NCBI GenBank assembly: GCA_036476315.1 | Contig: JAZGBI010000073.1 | Span: 1 to 64,000, forward strand | Direction of reading: 5' to 3' | Length of the DNA stretch: 64,000 nucleotides | DNA from: Candidatus Neomarinimicrobiota bacterium | GTDB taxonomy: Bacteria; Fidelibacterota; Marinisomatia; Marinisomatales; S15-B10 | Part shown: positions 13,851 through 53,530 of the stretch, in pieces | Numbering within the stretch: position 1 is the stretch's first letter | Layout: each line of letters opens with the position of its first letter | Made by a program: the position numbers and the translations under genes | The notes under the pieces: model-generated | What the model saw: the letters and a program-made list of their open reading frames with translations, nothing else | Database searches by the model: none | What the model was told of the DNA's origin: nothing

Positions 13851-14743
13851 AATAACTTATATCCTCACTTGAAAGCTACACTTTAGGTCCATAGTACCAA
13901 CGGGGGATTATCCCTGGGACCCACGGACACTGTCTATTTTTCCCTGTTATGTAACGTTAGAGCCGGATCTAACTACTCGATCCAGGTTTCATCTACTATT
14001 GAACAACTCCGATCACGATCGGATTAGGAGGGATCAAGGAAGGAGAGAAAGAAGAATGAAAATCTTTATCGTTTTAACTTCGAAAAACGTGCAAATCTTT
14101 TCTAAGAAACTTCCGAGCAATGCCTTCCCGATTCCGCCCGTATCAATCTAAGGTACATCGCAATCCTGGACTTGCCAAGGGTTTTGTCCGGGCCAAAATC
14201 TTCTGGAGCTTTTCCAACCGGAGTGCTGCCCCAGGAACTTCCATTCTTTACACTCCGCACACATTCTCATCGTGGGAATGTGCCCACCATTTATTTTCTC
14301 GTACTTTTCTTAGCGTAAGAAAAGTACTGCAAAATCTCAAGATCCTGTGGAGAACCTTCGGCTGAATCCCGACGGGTCGGGACTAATCCGCGGCTCGGCC
14401 ACCCCCTTTTCGCCAGATTGTTTTAGGCCGTTTTCTTCTCTCATCCCGACAAATCGGGAAAAAGTCAAGAGAAAACCATTCAGGGAATTCAAGTACGCTG
14501 GGGGCGTTGAGCTCAATGAAAGCCCATGAACAAACCGGGTATAATAAAACCATAAATTTCTACATGCTTATCTGAAACGCCTGTTTTCCGACAGCTGGAA
14601 AATCTTGCCTTCAGATGAAAAGTTGTTTTACTTGATGTTCAATTTTACTAAACTTGGCCAGTCGTGATTTGAACCATATTGCCGCGACGCTAAAAAAGGT
14701 GCTAAAAAGGTACCAGATGCCGGGTAGCACCGGCTTTTTTACT
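13851..14743. other. Long divergent intergenic region between rng and metH
   Basis: I find no convincing gene here; two plus-strand ORFs of 60-81 codons have no start signals. Structural elements are a perfect 12-bp-stem palindrome GTACTTTTCTTA-GCG-TAAGAAAAGTAC (14301-14327); two small hairpins of type TCCCGAC-NNN-GTCGGGA/CCCGACAAATCGGG (about 14367-14382 and 14443-14459); the 17-mer TCTCAAGATCCTGTGGA (14335-14351), which recurs elsewhere; and a terminator-like hairpin next to metH (14719-14740). Confidence 0.6.
14719..14740 (+). terminator. Terminator/attenuator-like hairpin directly before metH
   Basis: GCCGG (14719-14723) pairs with CCGGC (14730-14734) and is followed by six T (14735-14740), ending 3 bases before the metH ATG. 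GGTGCT (14698-14703) can pair instead with AGCACC (14726-14731), which would disrupt the terminator. The two forms exclude each other, as in an attenuator. I see no B12 box or SAM-box upstream, so the controlling signal is unknown. Confidence 0.6.
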
Positions 14744-18549: not shown

Positions 18550-19347
18550 ATGCGCAATGAACTTGACGTGGCCCTGGAAGCGGCGCGGGAGGCGGGCAAT
18601 CTCGTGCTGCAATACTACAATCAGTCCAACTATGAAGTGAAGAACAAGGGGGTGGGCATAGGCTCCCGCGGATATAACCCCGTGACCACCGCAGACCATG
18701 CCTCAAATTCTCTTCTGAAAGAGATTCTGCTCACGGAATTCCCTCACTACGGATGGTTCTCGGAGGAGACATCCGATTCTCCCGACCGGCTGACAAAAGA
18801 GCGCGTCTGGATCGTGGACCCCCTGGACGGTACCCATGAGTTCATAGAGGGTGTACCAAACTTCGTCGTGAGCATTGCTCTGGTTGAAAACCATCTTCCG
18901 ATTCTGGGTGTTTTGTACAATCCCGCAACTGAGGAGATATTCTGGGCGGCCTCGGGACAAGGTGTCAACCTGAATGGTGAAAAGGTTCAATGCACATTGC
19001 AGTCGGAACTCTCAGAGATGGTAATCCTGAACAGTCGCACCGAAACAGACAGGGGATTGTGGAGCCGTTACAATGAAACGTTCTCAGAACTGAGGGCGGT
19101 GGGAAGTGTGGGTTACAAGCTGGCCCTCACAGCTGCCGGAATGGCGGACATTTTCGTCTCTTTGCGACCCAAACACGAGTGGGACATATGCGGGGGTCAC
19201 TGTCTCATCAACGAAGCGGGAGGAAAATTGATTGATCTCAAGAGCCGGGTGGTAACCTACAACAACGAGAACGCCCTCATTTCTCCAGGTCTCATCGCAG
19301 GAAATCCGAGTGCAGTGAAGAACGTACTGGATGTGCTAGGGCGCTAG
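18550..19347 (+). CDS. CysQ/inositol-monophosphatase family phosphatase
   Basis: A 265-residue member of the lithium-sensitive IMPase/bisphosphate nucleotidase superfamily. Metal-site motifs are visible: FSEETSD, the signature WIVDPLDGTHEFIEG near residue 95, and the late motif WDICGGHCLINEAGGKL. The closest role by overall pattern is 3'(2'),5'-bisphosphate nucleotidase (CysQ), which recycles PAP; inositol-phosphate activity cannot be excluded. It starts 125 bases after metH and precedes thyX on the same strand. Confidence 0.85.
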   Translation: MRNELDVALEAAREAGNLVLQYYNQSNYEVKNKGVGIGSRGYNPVTTADHASNSLLKEILLTEFPHYGWFSEETSDSPDRLTKERVWIVDPLDGTHEFIEGVPNFVVSIALVENHLPILGVLYNPATEEIFWAASGQGVNLNGEKVQCTLQSELSEMVILNSRTETDRGLWSRYNETFSELRAVGSVGYKLALTAAGMADIFVSLRPKHEWDICGGHCLINEAGGKLIDLKSRVVTYNNENALISPGLIAGNPSAVKNVLDVLGR

Positions 19348-19406
19348 CGTGTTCATGTGTTAAAGTGTTCAGGTTGTGACGGGCTTCAAAGGCAAGTGGA
19401 AGGGTC

Positions 19407-24046: not shown

Positions 24047-24580
24047 ATGAGAGACGAAGTGCTGCAGCTATGGCCGGAGATTGAATGGATCGAGGACACC
24101 GTGCTCCGGGGGAAAGTTACGGACTGCTGGGAATACGCCATCGAGAACAGTCCTCTTTCGCCGGAAGATCTCAGAAATATCCCTTTCTCTCTTCTGGTCG
24201 AGGACTGCAAGATATCTTTCATGAACCATAAGCGAACGGCTGTTCATCTTGCAGTGGAAATCGCCAAAATCATGCAACAGAATTTTGGAGATGAGATCTC
24301 CATCGACATGGATACCTTGATCGCCGGGGCCATTCTCATGGACGTGGGAAAGCTATTTGAGTACGAGATAGTTGACAGAAAGCTGACCACGAGTGACTCA
24401 GGGAAAATCCTCCGCCATCCCTTTAGCGGGGTAGGCATTGCAGCGCGCTTTGGGATTCCGCCCGGAGTCCAGCACATCATCGCCACGCACTCAAAGGAAG
24501 GTGATTTCGGGGAAAGAACCGTTGAGAGCATCATCGCCCATCACGCGGATTTCGTCACCTTTGAACCGTTTAGGAGATGA
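24047..24580 (+). CDS. HD-like domain protein with altered HD motif
   Basis: A 177-residue protein from the ATG at 24047, with GGGAGGGAG as ribosome binding site. The pattern follows HD-superfamily phosphohydrolases: HLAVEIAKIM (first His), AGAILMDVGKLFEYE where the usual HD pair is MD, a later ATHSKEGDFG and IIAHHADFVTFEP. Loss of the HD-motif His may reduce metal binding, so activity is uncertain. It sits in the citrate lyase cluster, with 14 bases between citF and its start, suggesting a metabolic or nucleotide-linked accessory role, which is inference. Confidence 0.7.
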   Translation: MRDEVLQLWPEIEWIEDTVLRGKVTDCWEYAIENSPLSPEDLRNIPFSLLVEDCKISFMNHKRTAVHLAVEIAKIMQQNFGDEISIDMDTLIAGAILMDVGKLFEYEIVDRKLTTSDSGKILRHPFSGVGIAARFGIPPGVQHIIATHSKEGDFGERTVESIIAHHADFVTFEPFRR

Positions 24581-24583
24581 CTT

Positions 24584-25050
24584 GATACTGGATACTGGAT
24601 GCTTGATGCTGGATACTCGACGCCGGATAGGAAGGCTCTAGGTTGACCTACAGGGAATTGGAGGTTTGGCAGATGGCAAAAGATTTGGCGGTTGACATTC
24701 ATTCGATGACCTTAAATGAATTACCCAAATTCGAAATGTTCGAAGAGGGAGGACAAATCAGGAAGTCAATCAAATCGGTTAAATCAAATATCGCGGAAGG
24801 GTACGGTAGGCGACGTTACAAACAGGAGTTCATTCGATTTCTACATTTTGCCCTTGCCTCCAATGACGAGACTTTGGATCATCTCGACACGCTTTTTGCT
24901 ACTCAATCATTGAAAGATCAATCATTGTATGACGAACTGTGTTCGAGGCTCGAAGTATTGGGCAAGAAACTCAATCAATTTATTCGTTCAGTTGGGGAAT
25001 CTCATGTCAGTGCCAAGTAATGACCGATCCAGAATCCAGTATCCAGTATC
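24584..25050 (+). mobile_element. IVS-like element: four-helix-bundle gene enclosed by a 17-bp perfect inverted repeat
   Basis: GATACTGGATACTGGAT (24584-24600) and ATCCAGTATCCAGTATC (25034-25050) are exact reverse complements. They enclose the S23-type ORF (24643-25020), so the transcript can fold with the whole ORF in the loop. This is the layout of 23S rRNA intervening sequences (IVS), which carry the same protein family. Here it sits between protein-coding genes, and the right arm forms the first codons of the aconitase gene. Confidence 0.6.
24643..25020 (+). CDS. Four-helix-bundle protein, S23/IVP (avd-like) family
   Basis: A 125-residue protein with the family signature near residues 5-50 ([20 protein letters not shown] ... 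[19 protein letters not shown]) and the [20 protein letters not shown] segment. It is helical throughout. The family is found in rRNA intervening sequences and as the accessory protein of diversity-generating retroelements; its role outside those is unknown. The start is TTG (a later ATG would cut the signature). No reverse transcriptase or template repeat is present here. Its last codons overlap the ATG of the aconitase gene (25004) in another frame, so the two are translationally linked. Confidence 0.85.
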
Positions 25051-27016
25051 CAGGAATCAGAATCTGGTCGAAAAAATCGTTCAGCGGTATGCCTCTGAGA
25101 CCAGCGAGAGTGATTATGTTCACCGCGGGGATTACGTTTTCATCCGACCGGCCCATGTGATGACTCACGACAATACGGGTGCGGTGATGGGGAAGTTCAT
25201 GAAAATGGGGAAGGAGAAAATGGCCGATCCCCGTCAGGTTGTTTTCGCCCTGGATCACAATGTTCAGGACAAGAGTAAAGAGAATCTTGAGAAGTACCGG
25301 AGGATTGAGGAATTCGCAAAGGAGATGGAGGTAGATTTCTACCCCGCCGGTCGGGGAATCGGTCATCAGATCCTCTGTGAGGAGGGATACGCTTGGCCTG
25401 GCACGATGGTGGTGGCGGCGGACAGTCATTCTAACATGTACGGTGGTCTCGGGTGTCTCGGGACCCCTGTGGTCCGTACCGACGCGGCGGCCATCTGGGC
25501 CTCGGGAACGACCTGGTGGCAGGTGCCGCCGGTTGCCAGGGTATCACTGTCCGGGAAGCTCCGGCCGGGAGTGGTGGGTAAAGATGTGATTGTCACTCTC
25601 TGTGGTGTCTTTAACCATGACGAAATGTTGAATCACGCGATTGAGTTTTCCGGAGAAGGCATCTCTCATCTGAGTCTCAACGACCGTTTGACCATAGCCA
25701 ACATGACCACGGAGTGGGGAGCCCTTGCGGGATTATTTCCCGTGGATGATGTGACCCTCTCGTGGCTCCGTTCCCGTACCAGGTTTGTGGAAAAGCGGGG
25801 TCCCGCAGGCGTCCCGTCCGATGTCGACGGTAAAGATATTCACTCTCGCCTCAACGACAGGCGAATTGAGGCTCTGGAAAGGGATGTTCTAGAGGCCGAT
25901 CCTGATGCCTTCTACTCAGTGGAACTCACTCTCGATCTTTCCACTGTTCGCCCCTACGTATCGGGACCTGACCATGTTAAGGTGACGGAGAGTGTAACGG
26001 AAATTGAAAGAAAGAATATCAGGATTGACAAGGCATATCTTGTATCCTGCGTGAACAGCAGGGTAGAAGATCTCGCCGAAGCGGCGGAGGTAGTCCGGGG
26101 GAGAAAAGTTGCAGCAAGCACCGAATTCTATATTGCGGCGGCATCGAGCGAAGTTCAGGCTGAAAGCAAAAGACGCGGTGACTGGCAGGTTTTGGTCGAG
26201 GCGGGTGCAATTCCCCTGCCGCCGGGATGCGGGCCGTGCATAGGTCTGGGAATTGGTCTTCTGGAACCAGGTGAGGTGGGGATTTCCGCGACCAATCGGA
26301 ATTTCAAAGGTCGCATGGGATCCCGTGAGGCGCAGGCCTACCTGGCATCTCCTTCTGTCGTGACTGCCTCCGCCATTGCCGGCAAGATTACCGCTCCGAA
26401 AGAATTTGACCGCGTGGACCTTCGAACAAGTGTGACCCTTCGTGAGGAAGAAAAAAATGGTGGTGTTCGAGCAACTCTACTGCCTGGATTCCCCAAACGG
26501 ATGGAGGGAGAATTGGTTTTATGCCATCAGGATAATCTCAATACCGATGGCATCTTTCCGGGCAAGTACACCTATATTGATGACTTCACAGCTGAGCAAC
26601 AAGCCCAGGTGGTGATGGAGAACTACGATCCTGAATTTGCCAACGTTATCAGTGCGGGAGACATACTGGTGGGGGGATTCAATTTTGGAACCGGGAGTTC
26701 CAGGGAGCAGGCTGCTACGGCTCTGAAATACCGTGGCATACAATCGGTGATAGCGGGTTCATACAGTGCCACTTATAGCCGAAACGCCCTGAACAACGGG
26801 TTTCTTCTCCTGGTCGCTCCCGGGTTGGTGCGTCATCTGAAGGACCGATTTGGAGATGAAAAATTGACGGTTCGAACAGGGATTCGTGCTCGGATCGATT
26901 TTGAGAATTCAACCATGACAGCAGACCAGAAAACGTACACTTTTGCCCCTGTGGGAACCACCGCCCAGGAACTTGTTCTTGCGGGGGGATTGGAGATGTG
27001 GGTGGGCAACCGATGA
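25004..27016 (+). CDS. Aconitase-superfamily hydratase, homoaconitase-like
   Basis: A 670-residue single-chain aconitase. It resembles fungal homoaconitase (Lys4) and aconitase-2 type proteins: [60 protein letters not shown]. Fe-S cysteines are in LVSCVNSR and GCGPC, and the swivel domain has [18 protein letters not shown]. It interconverts a tricarboxylic acid and its iso-form. Citrate, homocitrate or a methylcitrate-type acid are all possible; citrate is favoured by the neighbouring citrate lyase genes. The N-terminal 20 residues ([16 protein letters not shown]) are encoded by the inverted-repeat arm of the preceding element and are probably not ancestral. The stop overlaps the CDF gene as ATGA. 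Confidence 0.85.
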
Positions 27017-31924: not shown

Positions 31925-32062
31925 CAGTAGTCAGATCACTCATCCATTCTCCATTTCTCCATTCCTCCATTTCTCCTCCTCCACAGGAGACCCTACGGGT
32001 CAAGGGAGTTCCTACGGAACAATTCTCCAGTTGTCCATTCTCCAATCTTCAATAATCAATAT

Positions 32063-33556
32063 TCAATTTGCTTCGTATTCACCATAAACACCACGCAACG
32101 TATCAGAAATTTCTCCCAGAGTCGTGCGGACTTTTACCGCTTGTATCAAGTAGGGAAGGAGGTTCTCGTCATTCGTTGCCGCCGTGGCGAGGGATTCCCT
32201 TGAAGATGCCACGGCGAGGTTGTCACGCGTCCGTTTGAATTTCTTGACGCGATCGATCTGTTTTGCCGTCGCCCCGGGATCGATACTTAACGTGTCAGGT
32301 TCACCGTTCACATCTGAAACAAACTTGTTTACACCCACGACGATGCGTTTGCCACTATCCACGCCTCTCTGGTACTCCAGGGCGCTCCGGATTATCTCAT
32401 TTTGAATGAATCCTTTTTCGATAGCTTTTACGGCACCTCCTATTTCGTCAATCTTCTCAATAATTGTCCTGGCCTCTTTTTCAATCCTGTCGGTGAGTTC
32501 TTCCACGTGATAGGAACCCCCCAGGGGATCCACCGCGTGGGTTACTCCGGTCTCGTAAGCGAGGACTTGTTGGGTCCGGAGTGCGAGCTGGACCGACTTC
32601 TCTGTGGGGAGTGCCAGTGCTTCATCCTGAGCGTTGGTATGGAGAGATTGGGCGCCACCCAGGACCGCTGCCAGAGCTTCCACGGCAGTTCTCACCACAT
32701 TGTTACCCACCTGCCGCGCAGCGAGCGTCGATCCGGCGGTCTGCACATGAAAGCGGCACATCATGGATCTGGGGTTCTTCGCGGAAAACCTGTTCTTCAT
32801 TATCGTCGCCCACAAGCGACGAGCGGCGCGGAATTTTGCCACCTCTTCAAACAGGTCCAAATGGGCGTTGAAAAAGAAGGAGATACGAGGGGCAAAATCG
32901 TCCACGCTGAGTCCACGGTGGAGAGCTTCTTGAACGTAGGCAATGGCGTTCGCAAAGGTGAAAGCGAGTTCCTGGGATGCCGTCGAACCGGCTTCTCGAA
33001 TGTGATAACCCGAAACGGAAATGGTGTTCCACTTTGGCATCTTCTCATGACAGAATTCGAAAGTATCGGTAACGATCTTCAAACTTTCCCGGGCGGGGAA
33101 AATGTGAGTTCCCCGGGCAACGTATTCCTTCAGAATATCGTTCTGAATGGTGCCCCGCAGCTTCGAAAGTGGAATACTCTGGCTTTCCGCAATGGCAACA
33201 TAAAAGGCGAGAAGAATCGCCGCGGTAGAATTGATGGTCATTGAAGTGGAAATCCGGTCGAGAAGGATGCCGTCAAAGAGGCGCTCCATGTCTTCGAGGG
33301 TTGAAATGGGAACCCCCACACGTCCCACTTCCCCTTCAGCTTTCCGGTGGTCCGAATCGTAGCCCATCTGGGTGGGAAGGTCAAATGCGACTGAGAGCCC
33401 CGTAACACCTTGCTCCAGCAGGTATTGAAACCGCCTGTTGGATTCCTCTGCAGAGGTGAAGCCTGCATACTGCCGCATGGTCCAGAGCCGTTCCCGGTAC
33501 ATATTGGAGTAGATGCCCCGGGTGTAAGGGAATTCACCGGCCTTTTCACGTGTCAT
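32063..33556 (-). CDS. Methylmalonyl-CoA mutase, catalytic (large) subunit
   Basis: A 497-residue protein from the ATG at 33556 ([20 protein letters not shown]). It is the TIM-barrel acyl-CoA-binding domain: [50 protein letters not shown]-type [17 protein letters not shown], and [15 protein letters not shown]. The B12-binding domain is absent, as in two-subunit enzymes, and its partner is not in the window. Compared with usual large subunits, about 45 N-terminal residues before GEFPYTRG are missing; upstream codons in this frame lie inside djlA and are not homologous. It converts methylmalonyl-CoA to succinyl-CoA. It begins 13 bases after the djlA-like stop, with no obvious ribosome binding site. 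Confidence 0.92.
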
Positions 33557-53316: not shown

Positions 53317-53389
53317 TTTCAGCGAGATGGAGAATTGAAGCGGTGGAGAGATGGAGAATTAATTCGTAATGCGTGATGCGTAATCTGAC

Positions 53390-53530
53390 TGCCCACTGCC
53401 ATCTGCCTACTGCCTACTTGGTTCCTGGCTGACTGCCTACTGGTGACTGCCACTGCCAATCGAAGCGTTGCGCCTGCCAGCCACCTACAACGTGGGGCAG
53501 GCTGGGAGATCCCGATCCTTCGGGACTGTT
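53390..53530. repeat. Dispersed repeat related to 31833-31924, inverted
   Basis: Read on the minus strand it contains CAGTCCCGAAGGATCGGGA, CGCTTCGATTGGCAGTGGCA and GGAACCAAGTAGGCAGTAGG, matching strings in the spacer at 31812-31930 in the same order with extra inserted DNA. Short iterated CTGCCTACTG strings fill the rest. Confidence 0.7.

Follow-up and report, generated by a model that had tools for sequence, protein, structure and literature searches.

A putative one-gene mobile element of the S23/IVP type at the start of an aconitase-family gene in Candidatus Neomarinimicrobiota

Analysis of a 64,000-nucleotide stretch of a Candidatus Neomarinimicrobiota bacterium (assembly GCA_036476315.1, contig JAZGBI010000073.1, positions 1 to 64,000 of the forward strand; hereafter the window) points to a mobile element with a single gene, allied to intervening sequences (IVSs): a heptamer-armed S23 unit inserted at the junction of an HDIG-domain gene and an aconitase-family gene, where it supplies the aconitase start. 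We consider this reading probable. The features on which it is based are as follows.

24047 to 24580, plus strand: upstream HDIG-domain gene (TIGR00277, E 3e-7), in a gene order kept in several element-free relatives
24577 to 24579, plus strand: native aconitase ATG, now orphaned; joining of the flanks gives MNQNLVE as in relatives
24580 to 25054, plus strand: whole inserted element, 475 nt, delimited by empty-site comparison with relatives
24581 to 24631, plus strand: left arm of quasi-tandem heptamers TGGATAC/TTGATAC (inverted repeat; lag-7 identity up to 0.8)
24584 to 24600, plus strand: perfect 17-bp core of the left arm, GATACTGGATACTGGAT (inverted repeat)
24643 to 25020, plus strand: S23/IVP four-helix-bundle ORF, 125 aa, putative TTG start (PF05635, TIGR02436; AlphaFold)
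25004 to 27016, plus strand: aconitase-family ORF as now read (TIGR00139), its first 17 codons derived from the element
25024 to 25054, plus strand: right arm of inverted heptamers ATCCAGT, translated as about aconitase codons 8-17
25034 to 25050, plus strand: perfect 17-bp core of the right arm, ATCCAGTATCCAGTATC (inverted repeat)
25055 to 27016, plus strand: aconitase body as before the insertion, beginning at native codon 2, 63-71% identical to most relatives' orthologues

The window element and the aconitase start

The ORF at 24643-25020, which probably starts at TTG 24643, matches PF05635 (E 3.5e-25, 88.7 bits against a curated cut-off of 33.8) and TIGR02436 (E 1.7e-26, 92.6 bits against a curated cut-off of 24) in profile searches, and AlphaFold predicts a four-helix bundle with high confidence (pLDDT 95), the model matching 2gsc and 2rld in structure comparison (TM 0.77-0.91). 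The protein is without basic character (pI 6.4 versus a family median of 8.8), a point against the reading favoured here. The ends of the element pair imperfectly over 27 bp, with the perfect 17-bp repeat as core and with arm mismatches at 3 of 27 positions. Among 1044 positions of the same geometry sampled across the window, only this locus has an inverted-repeat score of at least 16, reaching 19.5 against a 99th percentile of 13.3. The earlier note had described an IVS-like S23/IVP ORF enclosed by the perfect repeat and lying among protein genes; profile matches, structure model and repeat coordinates confirm the first part, and the location in a protein-gene operon, with no rRNA found by Rfam within the window, bears out the second. 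That a chance low-complexity repeat happens to lie beside an ordinary S23 gene is scarcely credible: related heptamer arrays do occur without the ORF, but this reading is refuted by the uniqueness of the locus in the window, by the prokaryote-wide association described below and by the empty sites of relatives. Elsewhere in the window, Rfam RF00521 (SAM-alpha riboswitch) matches positions 14651-14726 (plus strand) with 41.8 bits, outside the group implied by its name.

The native aconitase ATG shared an ATGA with the HDIG stop TGA (24578-24580), and this ATG at 24577 is now read as M-T-stop. Deletion of 24580-25054 (475 nt) fuses "..TTTAGGAGATG" to "AATCAGAATCTGGTCGAAAAA", and the joined flanks read ATG AAT CAG AAT CTG GTC GAA (MNQNLVE), or, over a longer stretch, ATG-AATCAGAATCTGGTC, encoding MNQNLVEKI. 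Relatives of the same order with a readable aconitase start have M(S/P/K/T)QNLIEKI or nearly so, with no S23 gene in the displayed sequence ahead of that start and, in several, the HDIG end just upstream. These empty sites, together with the restored MNQNLVEKI, therefore show that the element entered directly after the native ATG that overlapped the HDIG stop, separating the start codon from the aconitase body. One A at the boundary can be assigned to either side, so that the element spans 24580-25054 or 24581-25055, and a check for a target-site duplication found only this 1-nt ambiguity. Restoration of the native start by exact removal is also what an intron-like RNA would give, were it excised and its ends ligated to ATG-AAT-CAG; yet rRNA IVSs are excised without ligation and leave 23S fragments (PMC4990558), the majority of copies are intergenic and would need no ligation, and no Rfam intron family matches in the window, making such splicing highly improbable.

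All usable in-frame aconitase starts fall within the S23 ORF. ATG 25004 is in the aconitase frame, follows a GGGGA by 5 nt and gives a 17-nt overlap with the S23 end; an alternative in-frame ATG lies upstream of it, at 24929, and beyond the right arm the next in-frame ATG/GTG/TTG is ~100 nt downstream, within conserved sequence, so that the aconitase start must be in the element. From this lack of other starts we infer that ATG 25004 is used, in which case the right arm would be read through as an N-terminal extension of ~17 residues. The out-of-frame ATG at 25020-25022, which overlaps the S23 stop (TAATG), could compete with it. The earlier note had placed the aconitase ATG 25004 inside the S23 ORF, which the reading frame confirms, and had proposed that the element provides the start of the next gene, which the relatives' empty sites and the want of other usable starts uphold; a start beyond the arm would fall in conserved sequence. 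It had also assigned codons 10-20 of the aconitase to the repeat arm; the arm is indeed translated, but as about codons 8-17, counted from 25004.

From residue 19 on, the aconitase-family protein has its best match in TIGR00139 (homoaconitase; 851 bits against a cut-off of 530). The gene could be a young pseudogene silenced by the insertion, considering that its native start is lost, that its new N-terminus is foreign and that the genome encodes a second, different aconitase-family protein on contig C30; however, the 2-kb frame is intact, the arms have already come to differ at the three positions noted above, and the in-frame ATG retains its GGGGA, and we judge silencing decidedly unlikely. 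In the same operon, two genomes of the set (G011 and G024) carry a different S23 element, of a second protein clade, in the citF-HDIG junction (L154, L160), with its left arm in the citF coding end and its right arm the complement thereof. AT-rich semi-repeats such as AATTCGTG/TAATTAGTG lie in the junction upstream of relatives' aconitase (L050, L053, L058, L060), perhaps as another class of remnant.

Inverted heptamer arms at S23 genes across prokaryotes

Across prokaryotes, S23-family genes usually combine with inverted arms in this way, for the most part outside rRNA. The window's genome has 11 PF05635 matches, and inverted flanking repeats with a differing short unit were present at the first six examined. 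In a same-order set of 100 elements from 41 genomes, flank complementarity had a median score of 14.5 versus 9.0 for mismatched flanks, and 57% of the copies scored at least 14 versus 1.3% of the mismatched-flank null. A prokaryote-wide set was obtained by scanning one genome per species with a five-sequence alignment and taking the 80 most query-like loci, 77 of them usable; these represent Pseudomonadota, Bacteroidota, Planctomycetota, Bacillota, Cyanobacteriota, Chloroflexota, candidate phyla, Methanophagales archaea and others, and 80% of the 77 scored at least 14 versus 2.9% of their null. The earlier note's suggestion to look for further S23 ORFs with flanking inverted repeats was thereby answered with many, and an Rfam rRNA match was found at 0 of the 80 loci, some stretches being masked in the collection. 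Self-similarity at lag 7 marked 44-46% of the same-order flanks versus 0-1% of distant flanks, other lags giving 0-4% (5, 6, 9, 10 and 11) or about 10% (8); prokaryote-wide, lag-7 arrays were present in 61-66% of flanks, and far-flank arrays amounted to 0-4% across both sets. Clear arms are absent in about 20-40% of copies, which are old, of clade 2 or decayed, and this counts against the reading favoured here. PF05635 occurs in 117 of 199 genomes sampled in the phylum, the search giving up to 22 copies, and S23 matches in 25 of 72,556 plasmid records, mostly cyanobacterial; carriage by phages was rejected, one query returning no S23 match in 50,697 phage records.

The heptamer differs among copies yet follows the protein subfamily, with a period of 7. 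The more alike two proteins are, the more alike are their units (Mantel p=0.001), the correlation being weak among distant pairs (r=0.13), where it may partly reflect base composition. Derivation of the arms from the target was rejected, as the unit goes with the protein subfamily even where the sites are unrelated. The arms of the window element are also present at a locus in the window's family (L078, genome G005) and at one in a Candidatus Marinimicrobia bacterium (L200).

A generic repeat found without the ORF would, according to the earlier note, have spoken against its reading, and here the answer is divided: related arrays do occur alone in the genome, but paired inverted heptameric arms belong to S23 ORFs prokaryote-wide. 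The arrays that stand alone seem to be kin or leftovers of S23 elements. Three heptamer-like arrays without an S23 ORF lie in the window (19332-19393, 31927-32095 and 53357-53456), and the units GTGTTCA, TCTCCAT, GCGTAAT and ACTGCCA of such arrays resemble S23-element arms elsewhere in the genome. Contigs C22, C50, C51, C63, C76, C84 and C88 of G000 (L025-L033) contain solo arrays of up to about 200 bp, in which TGGATAC/TTGATCC units shift gradually along the array, with no adjoining S23 ORF recognised. In three places (L026 1-130, L030 1-130, L031 1-125) contig-end CATGTCCTGA/CATGTCTTGA motifs directly abut heptamer arrays; the motifs are perhaps the ends of one repeated element, possibly with an insertion preference.

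Mobility, orientation and the pairing of the arms

What moves is the ORF together with two arrays of a single ~7-nt unit, inverted to each other. Two copies at unrelated sites of one genome (L119/L125) are alike over 410 nt only (94%), comprising the ORF and the inner arms, and two copies in different genomes (L108/L109) show the same likeness with unrelated flanks; homology that ends at defined ends in copies at unrelated sites is the mark of a transposable element. The shared-unit pattern is repeated across genomes by an AAGAACC family (L092, L135, L144), and the window's genome has a second S23 insertion specific to it, ahead of glyS. The moxR-DUF58 junction carries S23 copies in seven families of the order, mostly with (A/C)GTTAG(A/G)-like arms, and short heptamer remnants in some other genomes; in G024 a scar remains there in which, judged by its congener G011, 16 nt from the start of the left arm adjoin 7 nt from the end of the right arm. 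The guaA-glmS junction likewise has recurrent S23 elements with TTAATGG-like units in three families of the order (L088, L091, L127, L132, L157). Two Calothrix plasmid copies were set aside as uninformative on the unit, being part of a larger shared gene block. The S23 ORF is under purifying selection, with dN/dS of 0.05-0.3 for most measurable pairs and 0.78 for the same-genome pair L119/L125. Mobilisation by reverse transcriptase was rejected, RVT_1 being absent from G000, G010, G011 and G012, genomes with 5-26 copies of S23; with no RVT_1 match in the window's genome (96% complete), copying by an endogenous RVT_1 enzyme is unlikely.

S23 elements are oriented with their operons. With gene orientation called from the longest ORFs, neighbours were co-directional with S23 in 82 cases of the order-level set and antisense on both sides in 0, and co-directional in 45 versus 7 prokaryote-wide. 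The left arm begins a median of 7 nt past the upstream stop, and a median of 16 nt separates the end of the right arm from the following start. Few elements (6 of 88 fully assigned in the order-level set) sit in convergent or divergent gaps, the places in which an insertion ought to do least damage. This sense bias could reflect a need for host transcription, loss of antisense copies or entry via transcripts.

The arms of the window element could form an RNA duplex of -42.2 kcal/mol and are paired in the predicted MFE fold (z -2.4), the genome encodes RNase III, and in the Coxiella burnetii 23S IVS a 28-bp terminal stem is cut by this enzyme (PMC4990558). The earlier note had proposed, as one of two possibilities, control of the aconitase by cutting of the stem as in 23S rRNA. 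We regard this as quite unlikely. Selection for an RNA stem would make G:U outnumber A:C among arm mismatches, yet across 114 elements the counts are 127 and 186, no G:U excess but rather the reverse; long-range pairing would compete with ribosomes crossing the right arm; and a cut in that arm would part ATG 25004, within the aconitase's only usable start region, from the gene body, so that RNase III control would at best be a conditional off-switch when translation fails. The note's other proposal, translational coupling of S23 and aconitase, is plausible in view of the 17-nt overlap.

At one site, the arms drift together between genomes; as there is no G:U excess, either a common unit that is recognised or template switching accounts better for this. 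The latter would suit a different arrangement, in which S23 is the passenger of a MITE-like DNA element with inverted repeats that is moved in trans, its arms kept alike by replication slippage and template switching between inverted repeats and not by protein recognition. The missing G:U preference, the concerted drift, the solo arrays without an ORF and the G024 scar, which joins outer parts of both arms, all agree with this, but the strong purifying selection on S23 and the fixing of the period near 7 across phyla speak against it, and the sense orientation is unexpected for a free DNA element; on balance we think it unlikely.

Proposed mechanism and relation to known elements

In the IVS-type element that we favour, the S23 protein would recognise the heptamer arms of its own element in the form of RNA or DNA, given that each protein subfamily goes with its unit and that purifying selection acts on the ORF; this argument is one of correlation, which shared descent also yields. 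The element would depend on the host operon for its transcription, which would explain its sense orientation at tight operon junctions. Ribosomes moving from S23 into the aconitase may keep the right arm open, coupling aconitase output to S23 translation; should that translation fail, pairing of the arms would become possible and, with it, cleavage by RNase III. In the aconitase case, such an element has captured the start of a gene of central metabolism. We know of no assigned role for PF05635 proteins outside rRNA inserts, and cognate heptamer arms offer a candidate binding target for them and a reason for their many copies. It is possible, if still doubtful, that S23 elements form a separate class of prokaryotic mobile elements, found in bacteria and archaea, with a small non-enzymatic protein, inverted cognate heptamers, no transposase or reverse transcriptase and sense orientation in operons, of which rRNA IVSs would be a minority and many intergenic heptamer arrays the remains. 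The link to cognate arms also suggests where the long-noted heptamer repeats of bacteria may have come from, and it sets rRNA intervening sequences in context. Our search of the open-access literature, subscription papers being mostly outside its scope, found no report linking S23 genes generally to inverted heptamer arms.

Several known systems share part of this design. Like MITEs and IS elements, S23 units have inverted ends, mobility and remnants; unlike them, they have no transposase, their ends are drifting 7-nt tandem arrays, and they show strong sense orientation in operons. PF05635 has been noted to resemble Avd (PMC10053308), the accessory protein of diversity-generating retroelements (DGRs), and the window S23 model shares the fold of Avd (4dwl; TM 0.6-0.7), more weakly than that of 2gsc and 2rld; in contrast to Avd, it occurs in a genome in which no RVT_1 reverse transcriptase was found, and no template or variable repeats (TR/VR) were seen in the sequence examined. 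Tandem 7-nt units in intergenic regions are likewise known as GGGAATC in Xanthomonas, with 70-75 inverted heptamer pairs per genome, as GGGGA(C/T)T in Nostoc (PMC4692102) and as TAACTGA in Beggiatoaceae (PMC4679880), term searches of these two papers giving no mention of S23 ORFs; unlike S23 arms, these arrays are mostly single, with one sequence per genome. The closest counterpart is the 23S IVS of Coxiella burnetii, in which tandem heptamers (GACAGAT) of a copy number varying among strains lie upstream of the S23 ORF (PMC4990558). Both have an S23-family ORF between complementary ends, a total of about 430-480 nt and heptamers upstream, whereas the window element lies in a protein operon and not in rRNA, splits one start codon and supplies another, and S23 units here have heptamers on both sides that are subfamily-specific. 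With heptamers in the Coxiella IVS too, rRNA IVSs seem to be one special form of heptamer-armed S23 units, which are unusually widespread.
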